Shown here piece after piece: positions 2,854-8,979 of a stretch of 32,117 nt of DNA. The notes under the pieces are model-generated. The model was not told where the DNA came from. It saw nothing but the letters and a program-made list of their open reading frames with translations, and ran no database searches. Source of the stretch: Candidatus Contendobacter odensis Run_B_J11. Lineage in GTDB: Bacteria > Pseudomonadota > Gammaproteobacteria > Competibacterales > Competibacteraceae. The position numbers and the translations under genes were made by a program. How positions within the stretch are numbered: the first letter of the stretch is position 1; every line of letters begins with the position of its first letter. The DNA is taken from the NCBI RefSeq assembly GCF_000531125.1, contig NZ_CBTK010000010.1:1-32117 (forward strand), read 5' to 3'.

Positions 2854-2890
2854 AAACGGGAACCCCAGAGTTCTAATTAGCAACCCGTTT
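2854..2890 (-). terminator. possible terminator or attenuator after the PCu(A)C-like gene
   Basis: On the minus strand AAACGGG (2890-2884) pairs with CCCGTTT (2860-2854) across a 23-base loop, and T residues continue the right arm. The left arm overlaps the stop codon of the gene at 2889-3350. The loop is long and the stem only 7 bp, so this is a weak candidate that could separate the copper-related genes from the membrane-protein gene. Confidence 0.25.
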
Positions 2891-3350
2891 AATAGATTGA
2901 GCTTTTTTCATTTTTCTGCACAAACATTTCCACGATGATCTCCCCGGCGTTTTGGAATTTGAGTAAGACCGGAAAGCGATCTCCCTCCGCCAAGGGTTGC
3001 TTAAGGTCGCTAAACTGGATGTAGGGTCCACCGGGTTTCAGCCTGATTTCCTCCCCGGCTGGGATGGCGATAGCGTCAACCGGCTCGATTTTTAGCCCAG
3101 CGTCGGTCTTCGTCAGCGTATACAGTTCCGCCTTAGCCGCAATGGCCGTTGAAGCTGAAACCAGTTTATCGTCTCTCGCGCCCCGGTTTTTCAGCCCCAG
3201 ATAGCCCGATCCAGTCGTAGTCTGGGTAGGCGCCGCCCACGGATGCCGGACTGCAATACTGCCCAAAGGATAGCCGTGGCCGCTGACTAAAAACGGTATT
3301 CCTAGTAACACCAGCGCGGCGAACGCGGAGAAAAACCATTTCGGGTTCAT
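2889..3350 (-). CDS. PCu(A)C-fold periplasmic protein lacking the usual copper ligands
   Basis: A 153-residue exported protein starts at the ATG at 3350. A signal peptide spans residues 1 to about 24 (FFSAFAALVLLGIPFLVSG). The remainder follows the PCu(A)C (DUF461) pattern: IAVRHPWAAPT at 32-42, GSGYLGLKNRG at 47-57, IPAGEEIRLKPGG at 96-108 and LKQPLAEGD at 116-124. Normal members bind Cu(I) through a conserved His plus Met set and an HxM pair. Here Tyr77 stands where His is expected, Leu86/Ile88 replace Met positions, and the HxM pair reads Tyr110-Ile-Gln112. The fold is clear, but standard Cu(I) chaperone chemistry is not supported. It follows the DUF4189 lipoprotein gene by 8 bp in the mbnPH operon. 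Confidence 0.8.
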   Translation of the reverse strand: MNPKWFFSAFAALVLLGIPFLVSGHGYPLGSIAVRHPWAAPTQTTTGSGYLGLKNRGARDDKLVSASTAIAAKAELYTLTKTDAGLKIEPVDAIAIPAGEEIRLKPGGPYIQFSDLKQPLAEGDRFPVLLKFQNAGEIIVEMFVQKNEKSSIY

Positions 3351-3358
3351 GATGTTTT

Positions 3359-3733
3359 TCAACGATTGCACTCCGCCTCGGCAACCCGGCAACCTTGCCC
3401 CTTGCGCTGGCACTCCGCCAGCGCCGCGCTTTCAGCGGCAGCCGGCGTATCGCCCAAACCGATGCCGAAACCGGGATCGCCCAAGGCCAGCGTACCGCAT
3501 TGCCCCGGTCCGAATTCCAGTACGACCTGACAATCGGCAGTGGCGCAATTGGCTAATGCCTGCAGTCGCGCCTGTTGCGGATCGGGCGCTCGCCAATGCA
3601 GCCGCCAATCCTGAGTGCTGGCTGCGTAAGCGACTGCGCCGTAACTACTCGTTGAACTCGATGCTTCTAATCCGGCACAACCCGCGTTCAACATCAGAAT
3701 CAGCACGAGTGCAATTGCCGTTGCCGCCCTCAC
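3359..3733 (-). CDS. DUF4189-like lipoprotein
   Basis: A 124-residue lipoprotein starts with a GTG at 3733, inside a GTGA overlap with the upstream gene. The lipobox LNAGC places the lipidated Cys at residue 19, with Ala at +2, which predicts outer-membrane retention. The mature part matches the DUF4189 layout: YGAVAYAASTQDW, then a helix with ALANC...DCQVV, then QCGTLAL, a GFGIG turn, and a second AAALAEC...GC. The six mature Cys after the lipid Cys are probably disulphide-paired. Function of the domain is unknown. Its fixed place between the Gly-rich gene and the PCu(A)C-like gene suggests a role in the same exported metal-related assembly. Confidence 0.7.
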   Translation of the reverse strand: MRAATAIALVLILMLNAGCAGLEASSSTSSYGAVAYAASTQDWRLHWRAPDPQQARLQALANCATADCQVVLEFGPGQCGTLALGDPGFGIGLGDTPAAAESAALAECQRKGQGCRVAEAECNR

Positions 3734-3981
3734 GACTTCATACCCTGGAAACCGCGACCGCCCTTGCCATAACCATCACCCGGTGTTTTCCGAATCATGC
3801 CGTCTCCTTTACCGCCACCACCGCCACCCGCCCCACCGCCACCCGCCCCGCCACCACCGTGATGGGCATAGGCCGTGGGTAACGTGAGGGAATTGTCCAG
3901 TATTGGTATTCCCAAGCTCCAAGCCAAAGCGCTGCTTACTAACAAGTAATGCCAGAGGGAACGACGGGGACGATTGAGCAT
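3730..3981 (-). CDS. small exported Gly-rich protein with predicted N-terminal His-His
   Basis: An 83-residue protein starts at the ATG at 3981, 20 bp after the mbnH stop, with GGAG about 10 bases upstream. Basic residues, then a hydrophobic core (LLVSSALAWSLGIPIL, 13-28), then TAYA at 36-39 form a plausible signal peptide. Cleavage after Ala39 would leave a mature chain beginning His-His followed by a Gly-rich tract (42-57) and a basic Gly-rich tail ending GFQGMKS. A free N-terminal His is a copper-binding arrangement in some secreted proteins, which is notable in this operon. No family is recognised. The stop overlaps the next start (GTGA), so the two are coupled. Confidence 0.65.
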   Translation of the reverse strand: MLNRPRRSLWHYLLVSSALAWSLGIPILDNSLTLPTAYAHHGGGGAGGGGAGGGGGGKGDGMIRKTPGDGYGKGGRGFQGMKS

Positions 3982-4001: not shown

Positions 4002-5198
4002 TCAGTTGCAGCGGGAATGGCGGGGGGAATTGCCAAACGGGTCGGCGAAACGTGAATCACACAGGAATTCCCAATCGGTCAGACTCTGGAAAAAGGCGAT
4101 GAGATCCAGCTTCTCCTGTGCAGTCAGCCGGAAGCTCACGATCAGTTCACTCTTGAACGGACTCCGGGCGCCATCACCAGCCAACGGCCCTTCACTGATC
4201 AGCCGCCCGCCACGGGCATAGTGATCCACCACTTCCTCCAGCGTAGCGATGGAACCGTCGTGCATATAGGGTGCAGTCAACTCGATATTGCGCAGCGTTG
4301 GGGCGCGAAACCGGCCCATATCCGCAGGCCGCTGGGTGAACTCCCACAAGCCCCGGTTCCCCGCTGGATAGTCCCCTTTGCCGCCGATGTTGTAGAGACC
4401 GTTGTTGTGAAATTCCTCTTGCGCAACTGGCGTTCCAGCATGACTGACTGATTGGCTGAAGTTGAAACCACCGTGGCAGTGAAAGCACTCCATTCGCTCA
4501 GAGAAAAACAAGTTCTGACCACGCCGCGCTGCTGCGCTCATGGCGCTGTTATTCAATTGAAACGTGGCTTGGTCATAGGGCGAATTACCTGAAATCAAGG
4601 TGGAGACGAAAGCGGCGACGGCCTTGGCAACCCGATCTGCGTTAACTGGAGTGCTTTCTCCGGGATAAGCAGCGGCAAATAACTCTTGATACTTTGGATC
4701 AAAGCGGAAGCGATCCAGAATTTCAGCTTCATGATCGCTCCAACCCAGTTCCACCGGAAACTCGGCAAACATTGGGGTGAGCGCCTGAGCATGGAGCGTC
4801 TTTAGCACCGGGTTGGCCCAATCGAAAGTGGCGTTGTACACCACATTAGTCAAACTCATGGCATTGCGTGGATGCACCTCGCCGGTCGTGCCAATCGCCG
4901 TGGTGCGGCCATCGCTGAAGGCGCGCGCAGGTAGATGACAAGAGGCGCAAGACGCACTTTGATTGATCGACATGCGCGGGTCGTAGAACAGGTGGCGACC
5001 CAACTCGACTTTGGCGGTTGACATTGGGTTTTCAGCAAACTCCTTGGGTGTAGGGAAGCCTTTCGGCAATGACCACGAATAGCCCGAAGGAGTCACGGGT
5101 GGCGGCGGCGTCTCATCTCCGCCGTCGTCACCGCCACCGCATCCCGCAACCAGTAGCAACAGCCCTAGCGCCGTGGCCCAGCGGGATGTTCGACTCAT
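4002..5198 (-). CDS. mbnH: MbnH-type di-heme cytochrome c peroxidase family enzyme
   Basis: A 398-residue di-heme c-type cytochrome with lipobox LVAGC (Cys20) followed by a Gly/Asp/Pro-rich linker. Two heme sites are visible, CASCH at 84-88 and CFHCH at 238-242. The C-terminal PYMHDGS at 310-316 matches the distal-ligand region of the MauG/CcpA family. In characterised methanotroph loci MbnH converts a Trp of its partner MbnP to kynurenine, creating a copper site, through a bis-Fe(IV) intermediate. Here the gene overlaps the mbnP-like gene upstream by ATGA, which separates it from an ordinary cytochrome c peroxidase. Location is periplasmic, probably outer-membrane tethered. Assignment rests on the pairing as well as the motifs. 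Confidence 0.85.
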   Translation of the reverse strand: MSRTSRWATALGLLLLVAGCGGGDDGGDETPPPPVTPSGYSWSLPKGFPTPKEFAENPMSTAKVELGRHLFYDPRMSINQSASCASCHLPARAFSDGRTTAIGTTGEVHPRNAMSLTNVVYNATFDWANPVLKTLHAQALTPMFAEFPVELGWSDHEAEILDRFRFDPKYQELFAAAYPGESTPVNADRVAKAVAAFVSTLISGNSPYDQATFQLNNSAMSAAARRGQNLFFSERMECFHCHGGFNFSQSVSHAGTPVAQEEFHNNGLYNIGGKGDYPAGNRGLWEFTQRPADMGRFRAPTLRNIELTAPYMHDGSIATLEEVVDHYARGGRLISEGPLAGDGARSPFKSELIVSFRLTAQEKLDLIAFFQSLTDWEFLCDSRFADPFGNSPRHSRCN

Positions 5199-6121
5199 GG
5201 CTTGCGCACACTGAATAGCACTTGGGGAACCGCTTTGGAGTATTTCTCAGGAGTCGCTCCGGCTCCAGCGACATAGGTAAAGTCCAGATTCAGGCGCGGC
5301 ATGATGGGGATACACTCCGGATCGGAGTTGCCCGACATGCAGCCCGATGAGGTGTCGGGGGTGTTGAATGCGACATTGGACGCTGCCAACGTTTTACCCA
5401 TGTCCATCACAACACGGTCTTGATCGACGTTGAAGTTGTCCAAGCAGAATTCAGCGATGTTCGGATAACCGCAGGCGGCAGTGGGTGGGGCGCTGGGATC
5501 GGAACCGGGGCATTCGGTGCTGCCCAGGTGAGTCACGAACGCCACGCTGTTGTCGCCGCCGGGCGCACCAAAACCGTCCACACGGATGAACTTGCGCCCG
5601 CCCCGCCAGTTCCACAGCATCCCGGAGGCGTTCAACGGCGAGGGCGCAGTGGCATCACTGATATGGTTTAGCGCGTAGGGAACGCCGACCTTGAAGCACA
5701 AGCCCGCATAGTTCTCATTAGGCACGGATCCCTTTACGACCGCATTGGTCGGCAGAGTACCGCTACCGCAATCCTTTCTCAGGTCCAGCAGTACCGTATT
5801 TTGATATTGCCAGACGCCATCCTGATCCAGATCGATCTCTTGGCGGCTGCCATCAGCTTTAACCAGCGCCACATCATGGACATAGAAGCGCCAATCGTTG
5901 ACCTGATAAGTGCCGGGCTGACCGACGCCAACATTGCTATAGGTCTTGCCGCAGACAAAATCCTGACCGTTAACCTCCGCCTTGAACTGCACGGTCGCCG
6001 AGCGTTCTCCAGGACTGTTATCGTCATCGCTGCCGCAACCTGCGACCAGCGCCAGCGCGACGCCCAGCGCTGTAGCGCTCCGAAGGGGGAACAAAAACTG
6101 CCGGTTGCGGGGATGCGCCAT
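5195..6121 (-). CDS. mbnP: MbnP-type copper-binding lipoprotein
   Basis: A 308-residue lipoprotein with lipobox LVAGC (Cys29). The mature region shows the MbnP family pattern: VQFKAEVNGQDFVCGKTY (44-61), DWRFYVHDVALV (76-87), DGVWQYQNTVLLDL (101-114), a VGVPYALNH segment (145-153), PLNASGMLWNWRGGRKFIR (162-180) and VTHLGSTEC (196-204). Candidate metal or modification residues include Trp77, His82, His153, Trp170, Trp172 and His198. I cannot say which Trp becomes kynurenine without an alignment. The start ATG at 6121 has AGGAGA 8 bases upstream. It heads the leftward operon and sits 36 bp from a RegA-like box. No methanobactin precursor or biosynthesis gene is visible, so the pair acts outside a methanobactin locus. 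Confidence 0.85.
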   Translation of the reverse strand: MAHPRNRQFLFPLRSATALGVALALVAGCGSDDDNSPGERSATVQFKAEVNGQDFVCGKTYSNVGVGQPGTYQVNDWRFYVHDVALVKADGSRQEIDLDQDGVWQYQNTVLLDLRKDCGSGTLPTNAVVKGSVPNENYAGLCFKVGVPYALNHISDATAPSPLNASGMLWNWRGGRKFIRVDGFGAPGGDNSVAFVTHLGSTECPGSDPSAPPTAACGYPNIAEFCLDNFNVDQDRVVMDMGKTLAASNVAFNTPDTSSGCMSGNSDPECIPIMPRLNLDFTYVAGAGATPEKYSKAVPQVLFSVRKP

Positions 6122-6157
6122 TTCAAGATTCTCCTGGTTTTGTGGTATCTGATTATG

Positions 6158-6205
6158 CTAAGTCGCAGCAGGCGCGGTGAAAATGCGACAAATTGCCGCA
6201 CCTGT
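6158..6205. promoter_or_regulatory. RegA/PrrA-like operator upstream of mbnP (element 1)
   Basis: The core GCGAC-aaatt-GCCGC (6185-6199) matches the GCGNC...GNCGC half-site pair reported for RegA/PrrA-family regulators and lies in a 17-bp near-palindrome (6184-6200). A further inverted half-site GTCGCA occurs at 6162-6167, 22 bp from TGCGAC at 6184-6189. Aligned without gaps to 7078-7125, 32 of 48 positions agree. It ends 36 bp before the mbnP start. No convincing sigma-70 hexamers were found, which would fit activator dependence. The rest of 6206-6372 shows nothing recognisable. Confidence 0.55.
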
Positions 6206-6372
6206 AGGAAAAGAGACTGACACAACAAAACGGCTACAATGCAATGCCAAATAACGGTTACTGAATCCAACTCCGGCTGACGAAAGACTTGTGATCATTA
6301 TTGGCTACTCCACTGAGCTTACCCAACGACTCATCTCAGTTGGCAACGAACTGATTGCTATGTTTGTAGCGG

Positions 6373-6990
6373 TTACATTGCGTATCCGGCTTTTTCCAGC
6401 TCAGCATAAGTCGTCGGCTGGCGTGTTGGGTCAATGTCCAGACCTAATTGCAAACCGATTTGCGACAGTGAGAAAATACCGCGCACGGCTTGCTGTCCAA
6501 CGCCGGAGTCGCTATCTATCACCAGCGCATGCTGGCGATTGACCTGACGCAGCGTAGCGATGATGTCGCCGACCCGCGCGCTCAACACCTCTTTCATCAG
6601 CAGCGCCTCCAACTTTGGTCTGAGCGTCATCAAATCGGCAACCAGCAACTCATCCCAAACACCGCCGGCTTTGGTCAGAATGCGTCCGGGCTTGTCCCCT
6701 TCGATGTCACGACTGGTAATCAATCCAATGACTCGATTATTGGCGTCACTGACCAATAACAGGCGCACCCCATGTTGAATCATGGTTGTCAGCGCCTCGT
6801 TAATCGGTACGGACAGTTGAGTAATATGGGGAATGACCTGACTGAGATCGGTCATCACTCCGACAGCGGCATCAGCAGCGATGACCGGTTTAATAGCCGG
6901 CTGTTTGGCGCGAATGCGCCGCTTAGGGCGGCAGTACCCCGTGCCGGGTTCCAGACGATGCAATGAGAGCGGTGGGTAGGTATGGGTCAT
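6373..6990 (-). CDS. CBS-domain-pair protein
   Basis: A 205-residue soluble protein with two CBS motifs. The first covers about residues 51-105 (VIPHITQLSVPINEALTTM ... LLVSDANNRVIGLITSRDI). The second covers about 117-185 (ADLMTLRPKLEALLMKEV ... ALVIDSDSGVGQQAVRGIFSLSQI). The first 45 residues are basic and unassigned. CBS pairs bind adenine nucleotides or S-adenosyl compounds and often sense energy state. No catalytic domain is attached. It starts at the ATG at 6990 (GGAAG upstream) and is divergent from the RegB-like kinase gene, sharing the intergenic region that holds the second RegA-like element. Confidence 0.8.
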   Translation of the reverse strand: MTHTYPPLSLHRLEPGTGYCRPKRRIRAKQPAIKPVIAADAAVGVMTDLSQVIPHITQLSVPINEALTTMIQHGVRLLLVSDANNRVIGLITSRDIEGDKPGRILTKAGGVWDELLVADLMTLRPKLEALLMKEVLSARVGDIIATLRQVNRQHALVIDSDSGVGQQAVRGIFSLSQIGLQLGLDIDPTRQPTTYAELEKAGYAM

Positions 6991-7077
6991 GGGGGCGACT
7001 TCCAGGATACAAAACAGGTTAAAGAGGATCGATGCAACGATGAAAACCGCTACGCCTCTGTGGATCCTGCCATCATC

Positions 7078-7125
7078 CTAAGTCGTGGCGCGCAATTTTG
7101 GGATGTGACAAATTACCGCGCATGT
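7078..7125. promoter_or_regulatory. RegA/PrrA-like element between the CBS gene and regB (element 2)
   Basis: CTAAGTCG (7078-7085) and GACAAATT (7107-7114) occur at exactly the same 29-bp offset as in the element upstream of mbnP, and CCGC follows at the same position. The core reads GTGAC-aaatt-ACCGC, a degenerate RegA half-site pair. It lies 87 bp upstream of the CBS gene and 73 bp upstream of the preferred regB start, so it could control either gene or autoregulate the two-component system. An A/T-rich taaaatataac at 7143-7153 is a possible -10 for regB. Confidence 0.45.
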
Positions 7126-7198
7126 CCGGTTGAAGGCGCGGCTAAAATATAACGTTCACCACGCCCGAAACGGCGATTACCGGATCGGATTTAATCGA

Positions 7199-8434
7199 AT
7201 GGAAGATTTGCGACGCCTGCTGTTACTCCGTTTGCTGGTGATGCTGGGGCCGGTCATCATGCTGCTCTGGCTGTACTTCGGCCTGATCCCGCCCCATGCC
7301 CTGCCGGCGTGGTCGATAGTGATCTCTCTGGGATTGATGGCGCTGGCCGCCGCCACTTTGCGGCTGCGCACTCAGCGTGCTACTGCGCTGACGGCATGGG
7401 AGTTATTCGCCCATCTTCAGATCGACGTGCTGGCGCTGGCGATACTGTTGTTCTTCAGTGGCGGCGCCAGTAACCCTTTCGTTTCGCTGCTGCTCTTGCC
7501 GTTGATCATCACCGCCGCACTGCTGCCGCCCGGCTGTGTCTGGGCGATGGCAGGAGTGACGGTGACGGTTTATACCGCGCTGATGTTCTATTACCTGCCG
7601 CTGCCGGGGATGATCAGCGGCCACGGTCCCGGCTTTCATGCGCATTTATGGGGAATGTGGCTGGTGTTCGTGATTAGCGCTCTGCTGATCGCCGGCTTCG
7701 TGGCGCGATTGGCGGAAATGTTACGACAGCGGGACCGTCAGTTAGCGCGCTTGCGGGAAAAAGCGTTGCGCGACGAACAAATCCTGACCTTGGGAATGTT
7801 CGCAGCCGGTGCGGCCCACGAGTTAGGCACCCCTTTATCAACCATCGCAGTGCTGGCGCGGGAACTGGAACACGCCCATGGCGAAGACGCGCCGCACCGC
7901 GCTGACCTGCGCACCCTGCGTCAGCAAGTGGAGGTGTGCAAAAGCATTCTCGGCGACTTGCTTAAAAGCGCCGATTTAGCGACCGACCGCGAGGCCGCGC
8001 AAGCGTTGGATGTGCTGCTGGAACACATCCGCAACCGCTGGCAATTACTGCATCCCCGCGTGCCGCTGCGGGTCAGTTGCGCGGGACCATCGCCCTCGCC
8101 GGCGGTGGCGGCGCCGCAAACCATCGGACAAACCTTGATTAGCTTGCTCAACAACGCCGCCGACGCCTGCCCCAAGGGCGTGGATTTGGCAGGACGCTGG
8201 GATGCGTGCCGGGTGGTCATTGAGATTCGTGATCATGGGCCGGGGCTGCCGCCGGATGTGGCGAATCGCGTCGGGGAAGCCTTCTTTTCTACCAAGGAGG
8301 GCGGCATTGGCATCGGTTTATTGCTGGCCAATGCCGCGTTGGAGCGGCTGGGCGGAGAAGTCAGCCTGTTGCGCGATCCTCAGGGCGGCACCTGCACCCG
8401 GATCGATTTGCCGGCGCGGGTCGGCATGGCCTGA
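7199..8434 (+). CDS. regB: RegB/PrrB-type redox sensor histidine kinase
   Basis: I place the start at the ATG at 7199 (411 residues). The frame is open to a TTG at 7130 but without a ribosome site. The N-terminal half has about six hydrophobic helices (residues 10-170). It carries the fully conserved quinone-binding heptapeptide GGASNPF at 88-94. The H-box GAAHELGTPLSTIA places the phosphorylated His at 207, and the redox-sensing Cys typical of RegB is present as Cys247 in QQVEVCKSIL. NNAADA (318-323) and DHGPGLP (345-351) form the ATP site. RegB autophosphorylates when the quinone pool or Cys is reduced and signals to RegA. The stop overlaps the regulator start (TGATG), so the two are coupled. 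Confidence 0.9.
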   Translation: MEDLRRLLLLRLLVMLGPVIMLLWLYFGLIPPHALPAWSIVISLGLMALAAATLRLRTQRATALTAWELFAHLQIDVLALAILLFFSGGASNPFVSLLLLPLIITAALLPPGCVWAMAGVTVTVYTALMFYYLPLPGMISGHGPGFHAHLWGMWLVFVISALLIAGFVARLAEMLRQRDRQLARLREKALRDEQILTLGMFAAGAAHELGTPLSTIAVLARELEHAHGEDAPHRADLRTLRQQVEVCKSILGDLLKSADLATDREAAQALDVLLEHIRNRWQLLHPRVPLRVSCAGPSPSPAVAAPQTIGQTLISLLNNAADACPKGVDLAGRWDACRVVIEIRDHGPGLPPDVANRVGEAFFSTKEGGIGIGLLLANAALERLGGEVSLLRDPQGGTCTRIDLPARVGMA

Positions 8435-8979
8435 TGATGGAAGCGATGGATGGCTCCAGCCTGCTGCTGGTGGACGACGACGCCACTTTTTGCCGGGTGC
8501 TGGGTCTGGCTCTAAGCCGACGGGGCTTCGCGGTGGCGACCGCGCACGACAACGCGGCGGCGTTGCAACTGGCTCAAGCCGATCCGCCGGAATACGCCAT
8601 CGTGGATCTCAATCTGGCCGGCGATTCGGGTCTGAGTCTGATTCCTGAACTGCTCGCCCTCGATTCCGTCACCCGCATCGTGGTGCTCACCGGCTATGCC
8701 AGTATTGCTACAGCGGTGGAAGCGATCAAACTGGGCGCGGTGAATTATCTGGCCAAGCCCGCTGACGCCGATCAGGTGTTGGCCGCCTTAGCTGCTATTG
8801 CTGGCGATCCCGCCGCGCCGGTCAATACTCGCCCCCTGAGCATCGGTCGGCTGGAATGGGAACACATCCAGCGGGTACTGCATGACAACAGCGGCAACAT
8901 CTCCGCCACCGCCCGGCAGTTGGGAATGCATCGCCGCACCTTGCAACGCAAGCTGTCCAAACGGCCGGTCCGGTTCTAA
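8434..8979 (+). CDS. regA: RegA/PrrA-type response regulator
   Basis: A 181-residue regulator. The receiver domain (residues 8-122) has the acidic pair in LLVDDD (11-16), phospho-acceptor Asp58 in AIVDLN, the Thr in VVLTGYAS and Lys108 in LAKPAD. A short linker with Pro precedes the Fis-type HTH at about 155-175 (NISATARQLGMHRRTLQRKL), nearly the canonical RegA recognition helix. RegA activates or represses respiratory, carbon and redox genes. Here its likely targets in the window include the elements at 6158-6205 and 7078-7125. No senC gene accompanies the pair, unlike the classical alphaproteobacterial locus. The ATG at 8437 is an alternative start. Confidence 0.9.
   Translation: MMEAMDGSSLLLVDDDATFCRVLGLALSRRGFAVATAHDNAAALQLAQADPPEYAIVDLNLAGDSGLSLIPELLALDSVTRIVVLTGYASIATAVEAIKLGAVNYLAKPADADQVLAALAAIAGDPAAPVNTRPLSIGRLEWEHIQRVLHDNSGNISATARQLGMHRRTLQRKLSKRPVRF

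Follow-up and report, generated by a model that had tools for sequence, protein, structure and literature searches.

A putative RegA/PrrA-type operator-promoter shared by mbnPH and the regB/CBS gap in Candidatus Contendobacter odensis and its relatives

Introduction

What controls an mbnP-mbnH gene pair that lies close to the genes of a RegB-like kinase and a RegA-like response regulator? Kynurenine chemistry is known for both MbnH and MbnP. In the open-access literature, among the matches listed, we found no controller of the two proteins outside methanobactin operons. The question arises in the window, the whole 32,117-nucleotide stretch of a Candidatus Contendobacter odensis Run_B_J11 contig (Competibacteraceae) that was analyzed here. 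An earlier note on this DNA had pointed to two similar 48-bp blocks, one upstream of mbnP and one between a CBS-domain gene and regB, and had proposed that both carry a RegA-like operator.

Results

Genes around the two blocks

The mbnP gene (5195..6121, minus strand) and the adjacent mbnH gene for a di-heme enzyme (4002..5198, minus strand) both scored above their family cut-offs. MbnP reached 237.6 bits with TIGR04052 (cut-off 140) and matched PF20243; MbnH reached 495.1 bits with TIGR04039 (cut-off 362.85) and matched PF03150. Farther along the minus strand are genes for a DUF4189 protein (3359..3733, PF13827) and a PCuAC copper chaperone (2889..3413, PF04314). Judging from spacing and strand, the DUF4189 gene probably belongs to the mbnPH operon, and we infer that the PCuAC gene probably does too. 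Between mbnH and the DUF4189 gene, at about 3730-3981 on the minus strand (coordinates read by eye), a small secreted Gly-rich peptide is encoded. Its predicted mature end is HHGGGG-like, and it is also found at mbnPH loci of eight further family genomes (HGGGG in one). This peptide possibly binds copper.

On the other side of mbnP lie the CBS-domain gene (6373..6990, minus strand, PF00571), with relatives in 28 of 39 family genomes, the regB-like gene (7199..8434, plus strand) and the regA-like gene (8434..8979, plus strand). The most likely regB start is ATG 7199, since the TTG given in the ORF list (7130) lies ahead of the regB-facing -10 described below. The earlier note had placed RegB-RegA beside the block. 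The two genes do adjoin it, but both products fall under the curated cut-offs: the kinase reached 237.6 of 350 bits with the equivalog NF033792 and the regulator 190.3 of 250 bits with NF033791, each being the top match. We therefore call them RegB-like and RegA-like.

The RegA-like protein has a receiver domain (PF00072) and a Fis-type HTH (PF02954), and it matches the PrrA effector domain 1umq with an E value of 1.1e-11. Its MHRRTLQRKL is invariant in 14 family sequences. The group 1 cysteine (Cys156) is missing from the window protein, which by eye has the His of VLHDN where VYELCDR aligns. The RegB-like protein keeps the GGxxNPF motif as GGASNPF, and has a Cys 40 residues past the H-box His. 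G88, G89, N92, P93, F94, H207 and C247 are invariant in 14 family sequences. From the His-Cys spacing of R. capsulatus RegB we take C247 to be the redox cysteine. The GGxxNPF motif and Cys-265 are named for RegB in PMC8191878 (seen in part).

Two matching blocks

Block 1 (6158-6205) and block 2 (7078-7125), offset by 920 bp, are identical at 32 of 48 ungapped positions, and the distance from CTAAGTCG to GACAAATT is 29 bp in both. This agreement with its common 29-bp offset, reported in the earlier note, held up against dinucleotide-preserving shuffles of the two gaps (mbnP upstream and CBS/regB) compared on both strands. None of 1000 shuffles reached 32; the best 48-mer averaged 24.2 and at most scored 29. 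In the rest of the window the top match to either block was 26/48.

Block 1 contains GCGAC-N5-GCCGC at 6185-6199, within the palindrome TGCGACAAATTGCCGCA (6184-6200). The two 8-bp arms of this palindrome are complementary at 7 of 8 positions. The near-perfect palindrome before mbnP is thus confirmed, and so is its description as a RegA/PrrA half-site pair. Using the consensus sequences quoted in PMC5506826 (seen in part), block 1 has no mismatch to RegA or PrrA and one to RegR; block 2 has two, one and three mismatches, respectively. As a control, 5 of 20000 random 17-mers came within one mismatch of the PrrA consensus.

The composite CTAAGTCG-N21-GACAAATTNCCGC, with up to three mismatches allowed, occurs only at blocks 1 and 2 in the whole 4.6-Mb genome, and the reversed control pattern gave one match. 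Because there are only these two places, the block is not a scattered repeat, the case that the earlier note had named as its refutation, and we rejected that reading. Taken by itself, the loose motif TGCGNC-N5-GNCGCA shows no enrichment in the own genome (14 places against 13 for the control), and the palindrome with up to three mismatches stays at control level there (16+16 rows against 14+19). When 26 palindrome loci of this genome were inspected by eye, only the CBS/regB copy was promoter-like; the mbnP copy is locus L002, and another two rows carried no locus. Since motif counts in the own genome show no enrichment, the evidence is cross-genome conservation.

Operator-promoter anatomy

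Each block consists of a 17-bp palindrome and a -10 placed 22-24 bp beyond it. On the minus strand, block 1 reads operator 1, TGCGGCAATTTGTCGCA (6200-6184), the abutting -35-like TTTTCA (6178..6183), placed by a 17-bp spacer, the -10-like TAGCAT (6155..6160), 23 bp from the operator, and then mbnP. The mbnP -10 is overlapped by CGACTTAG, and CTAAGTCG is this sequence reversed. On the reverse side of block 1, TACAAT is found at 34 bp and none at 22.

Operator 2, CGCGGTAATTTGTCACA (7104..7120, minus strand), lies in the gap between the CBS gene and regB. It is among the weakest members, with 7 of 10 fixed positions. A -10-like TAGGAT (7075..7080, minus strand) faces the CBS gene at 23 bp, and a -10-like TAAAAT (7143..7148, plus strand) faces regB at 22 bp. 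With a -10 on each side at these distances, block 2 is a predicted symmetric divergent promoter, for the CBS gene one way and regB the other.

Two points of the earlier note had to be revised here. The shared operator stands, but CTAAGTCG overlaps the -10 and is no second binding motif. The promoter direction was also corrected: because the reversed CTAAGTCG overlaps the -10, both blocks are read on the minus strand, toward mbnP and the CBS gene, with block 2 having the additional regB-facing -10.

Conservation within the family

We compared 39 Competibacteraceae genomes, 11 of which have mbnP. The palindrome before mbnP is exact in all ten with readable upstream DNA; the eleventh, G015, has a contig edge upstream of mbnP and was left out. 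Upstream of mbnP, mean pairwise identity was highest in the palindrome (0.97), followed by the -10 (0.74) and the -35 edge (0.73); it was 0.47 for the spacer and 0.30-0.34 outside these elements.

A site with up to three mismatches lies 49-154 bp before regB in 16 of 20 family genomes. This count comes from 22 rows, less L140 (regB start off the contig) and L160 (a 45% regB with its N-terminus unaligned). Five of the 16 are the mbnP site itself, common to divergent regB and mbnP. Two of the other regB genes have sites with 4-5 mismatches, and those of G002 and G014 have none within 5 mismatches. Thirteen regB-gap sites are separate from the mbnP site. Eleven of them have a -10 at 21-24 bp on the flank that points away from regB, and nine have one on the flank facing regB; the background rate was 2.5%.

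Of 30 CBS loci, 23 yielded the ORF, and in 21 of those 23 there is no upstream match better than 5 mismatches. The site is therefore a feature of the regB gap, and we rejected it as a general CBS-gene element. Across the family the composite pattern gave 36 matches (reversed control, 19), 31 of them at the loci described here.

TACAAT was also observed 22-23 bp from the palindrome on the side of the CBS 3' end (L084, L086, L087, L089, L090, L101, L102). A conserved reverse promoter of this kind would read antisense into the CBS gene; it is perhaps a relic of a regB once located there.

Linkage to regBA and target genes

An orthologue of RegA was found in 22 of the 39 family genomes. Of these, 20 reach 74% identity or more, one has 64%, and one is incomplete and interrupted by an in-frame stop; three weaker matches belong to different response regulators. 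The orthologue is present in every one of the 11 mbnP genomes. Around the palindrome, regB and mbnP are direct divergent neighbors in G025, G026, G028, G030 and G038, and the CBS gene lies between them in G000, G006, G033 and G034. In G017 and G015, mbnP and regBA are on separate contigs.

Places with at most one mismatch numbered 30 in the 39 genomes (36 rows; reversed control, 9 rows). Twenty are found no more than 5 kb from regA or regB. Six more are the targets distant from regBA that are listed below or the mbnP of G017, and four look like chance. Genes behind regBA-near sites include NosL in G016 (scanned) and in G014 and G029 (similar N-terminus), PCuAC with SCO1 in G017, PCuAC in G018, an ORF followed by CopC and CopD in G001, and a TonB receptor in G004. 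G002, G007, G010 and G011 have a site close to regBA without mbnP as a neighbor. TonB and ExbD were dropped as targets in G010 and G011; these genes run toward the site, not away from it. Distant from regBA, the site precedes TonB receptors in G002 and G007 (scanned) and in G029 and G011 (by eye), and cydAB in G025 (CydA scanned).

The -10 at 22-24 bp is missing at the PCuAC sites of G017 (by eye) and G018 and at the NosL site of G029. Both PCuAC genes have GATAAT about 33 bp out, one helical turn further (by eye). A palindrome variant centered on AATAT/ATATT, with TAATAT or TAGTAT at 23 bp, was seen before TonB receptors of four genomes (L085, L104, L106 and L110). In G025, the promoters of cydAB (L109 / L162, G025:C4:210750-210795) and mbnP remain nearly identical past the palindrome, which suggests that this predicted promoter module was copied between the two genes.

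Two further genomes stand apart. In G018 (L159) regB is represented by no more than a short match, and RegA is absent at E 1e-15; in G027 (L132) regA is partial and contains an in-frame stop. Both represent decay of the RegBA system. Separately, a Competibacteraceae-type mbnP (79%) occurs on JAAUTD010000169.1 (L174), whose title is Synechococcaceae cyanobacterium SM1_2_3; the MAG looks misnamed.

mbnP genes outside the family

Searches with TIGR04052 in samples from the class (13 of 369 genomes) and the phylum (19 of 398) gave 27 outside-family genomes with mbnP, three of them with matches under the cut-off. A site was counted when at least 9 of 10 fixed positions were present up to 600 bp before the domain match. 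Seven of the 27 mbnP genes have such a site and 20 do not; among overlapping control windows of the same loci the count was 28 of 594. A -10 hexamer stands at 22 or 23 bp in 6 of the 7, compared with 1 among 35 reads from control palindromes of equal quality, and the seventh has TAATGT at 22. The flanks of these genes differ while the spacing from palindrome to -10 is kept. In all seven, positions 2, 4, 6, 12, 14 and 16 (the outer G-N-G-N-C / G-N-C-N-C) are invariant and the inner five bases vary.

One outside genome, G100, has a RegBA pair (RegA 61% identical) 1.7-3 kb from mbnH. The presence of RegA does not discriminate among the outside genomes and was set aside as uninformative: a full-length RegA-like protein was found in 6 of the 7 with a site and in 12 of the 20 without. 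In G233, one of the seven, NF033791 matched receiver domains only. Taken with the cis-linkage to regBA and the published consensuses, footprinting inside and outside the family upholds the central proposal of the earlier note, an operator shared by the mbnPH upstream region and the regB/CBS gap.

Discussion

Proposed regulation

Both blocks are very probably RegA/PrrA-type operator-promoters under the control of the neighboring RegA, driving mbnPH, the CBS gene and regBA; this assignment was made from DNA and protein sequence. RegB would sense the state of the respiratory chain and phosphorylate RegA, as expected from its family. Because RegB keeps GGxxNPF and the cysteine 40 residues past the H-box His, we infer that redox is the signal at the putative operators. 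RegA would then bind the palindrome, centered near -44 and touching a poor -35, and would most likely activate from the -10 located 22-24 bp beyond. A site near -44 that abuts the -35, with a 17-bp spacer, is a usual position for an activator. In Acidithiobacillus, most RegA binding is located upstream of the -35 (PMC5506826, in part). Repression by RegA instead of activation is possible, and Rhodobacter RegA does both (PMC5359404, in part). Block 1 would drive mbnP-mbnH and probably also the two genes that follow, for the DUF4189 protein and PCuAC. From block 2, transcription would run both ways, into the CBS gene and into regB-regA, so that the RegBA system is probably autoregulated.

The copper-handling targets, together with one copper-free oxidase, suggest as a more tentative idea that RegB senses a shortage of copper by way of the quinone pool. 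A specialized RegBA might then serve as an indirect sensor of copper sufficiency, acting through a standard promoter of palindrome, 22/24 bp and -10; we consider this possible but doubtful. When copper is short, heme-copper oxidases would fail, the quinone pool would become reduced and RegB would fire. RegA would then induce MbnPH, PCuAC, SCO1, NosL, CopCD and TonB receptors for copper capture and delivery, and in one genome also the copper-free bd oxidase. If this were true, the same promoter type would serve mbnPH in several gammaproteobacterial families.

Other explanations of the palindrome

The E. coli CusR copper box is GACAA-nn-TTGTC, with conserved inner bases and a two-base center. 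The core GACAA-n-TTGTC of our palindrome resembles it and the targets are copper genes, so the palindrome might be the box of a copper-responsive CopR/CusR-type response regulator, with RegBA as a mere neighbor. We regard this as very unlikely. The center of the palindrome is one base, not two, and the seven outside sites keep the outer positions and differ at the inner five, a pattern expected of RegA/PrrA but not of a box that carries its signal in the inner bases. Moreover, the sites cluster with regBA, and one precedes cydAB, a known RegA target in R. capsulatus (PMC5359404, in part).

That some other regulator uses the palindrome and RegBA is only a target is very unlikely. The operator was assigned by sequence, and G233, with its receiver-domain matches alone, would suit such a regulator. 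However, the RegA, PrrA and RegR consensuses fit, the sites are linked to regBA, and by eye no other regulator gene is regularly present at these loci. A third possibility, that recent copying of a promoter or repeat produced the two blocks and that they regulate nothing themselves, can practically be dismissed: the likeness of the G025 cydAB and mbnP promoters for more than 30 bp past the palindrome means that promoter copying happens in Competibacteraceae, but the own genome has two copies only, conservation is limited to the palindrome, the -35 edge and the -10, and outside mbnP genes keep the spacing despite different flanks.

Comparison with known systems

With RegA as the probable regulator, the conserved putative promoter ties MbnP/MbnH to respiratory redox sensing and names both the regulator and the exact bases. 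The earlier note had held that a RegA-mbnPH link is not generally described, and we likewise found none in the open-access literature, among the matches listed. The part of PMC3621798 that was available also gave no link of RegA to CorA, MopE or mbnPH. No motif could be derived from RegA-bound promoters of Acidithiobacillus, according to the available part of PMC5506826. The architecture of palindrome and -10 may offer a recognizable guide to RegA targets in Gammaproteobacteria.

The mbnPH genes of methanobactin operons, CorA/CorB and MopE share with the window pair the combination of a copper protein and a di-heme partner. CorA and MopE genes are lowered by copper, and their products are not markedly similar to MbnP (PMC3621798, in part). 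Methanobactin mbn operons differ in having their own regulators, MbnI/MbnR.

RegB/RegA of Methylomonas sp. DH-1 is likewise a gammaproteobacterial RegBA over metal uptake; its reported direct target is iron (feo), and mbnP is absent from the part of the text available (PMC13274454). RegS/RegR of Bradyrhizobium is similar in its operator, the RegR box differing from block 1 by one mismatch, and the genes under RegR control, direct or indirect, include copCAB and nos (PMC4064962, in part). In contrast to the window system, it is alpha-proteobacterial and has no mbnPH.

RegB/RegA and PrrB/PrrA of Rhodobacter have the same GGxxNPF kinase with a redox cysteine, the same Fis-type HTH regulator and the same operator form, GCGNC-N5-GNCGC. 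The window palindrome nearly matches GTGACAATTTGTCCC, the ChIP site at cydA of R. capsulatus (PMC5359404, in part). R. capsulatus RegA, a group 1 protein, binds copper and dimerizes through Cys156 (PMC9147068, in part), whereas the window RegA has VLHDN at the aligned place. Unlike in the Rhodobacter systems, senC does not adjoin regBA in the window. Rhodobacter RegA is global and uses degenerate sites, whereas the Competibacteraceae have near-perfect sites, mostly beside regBA and on copper genes.
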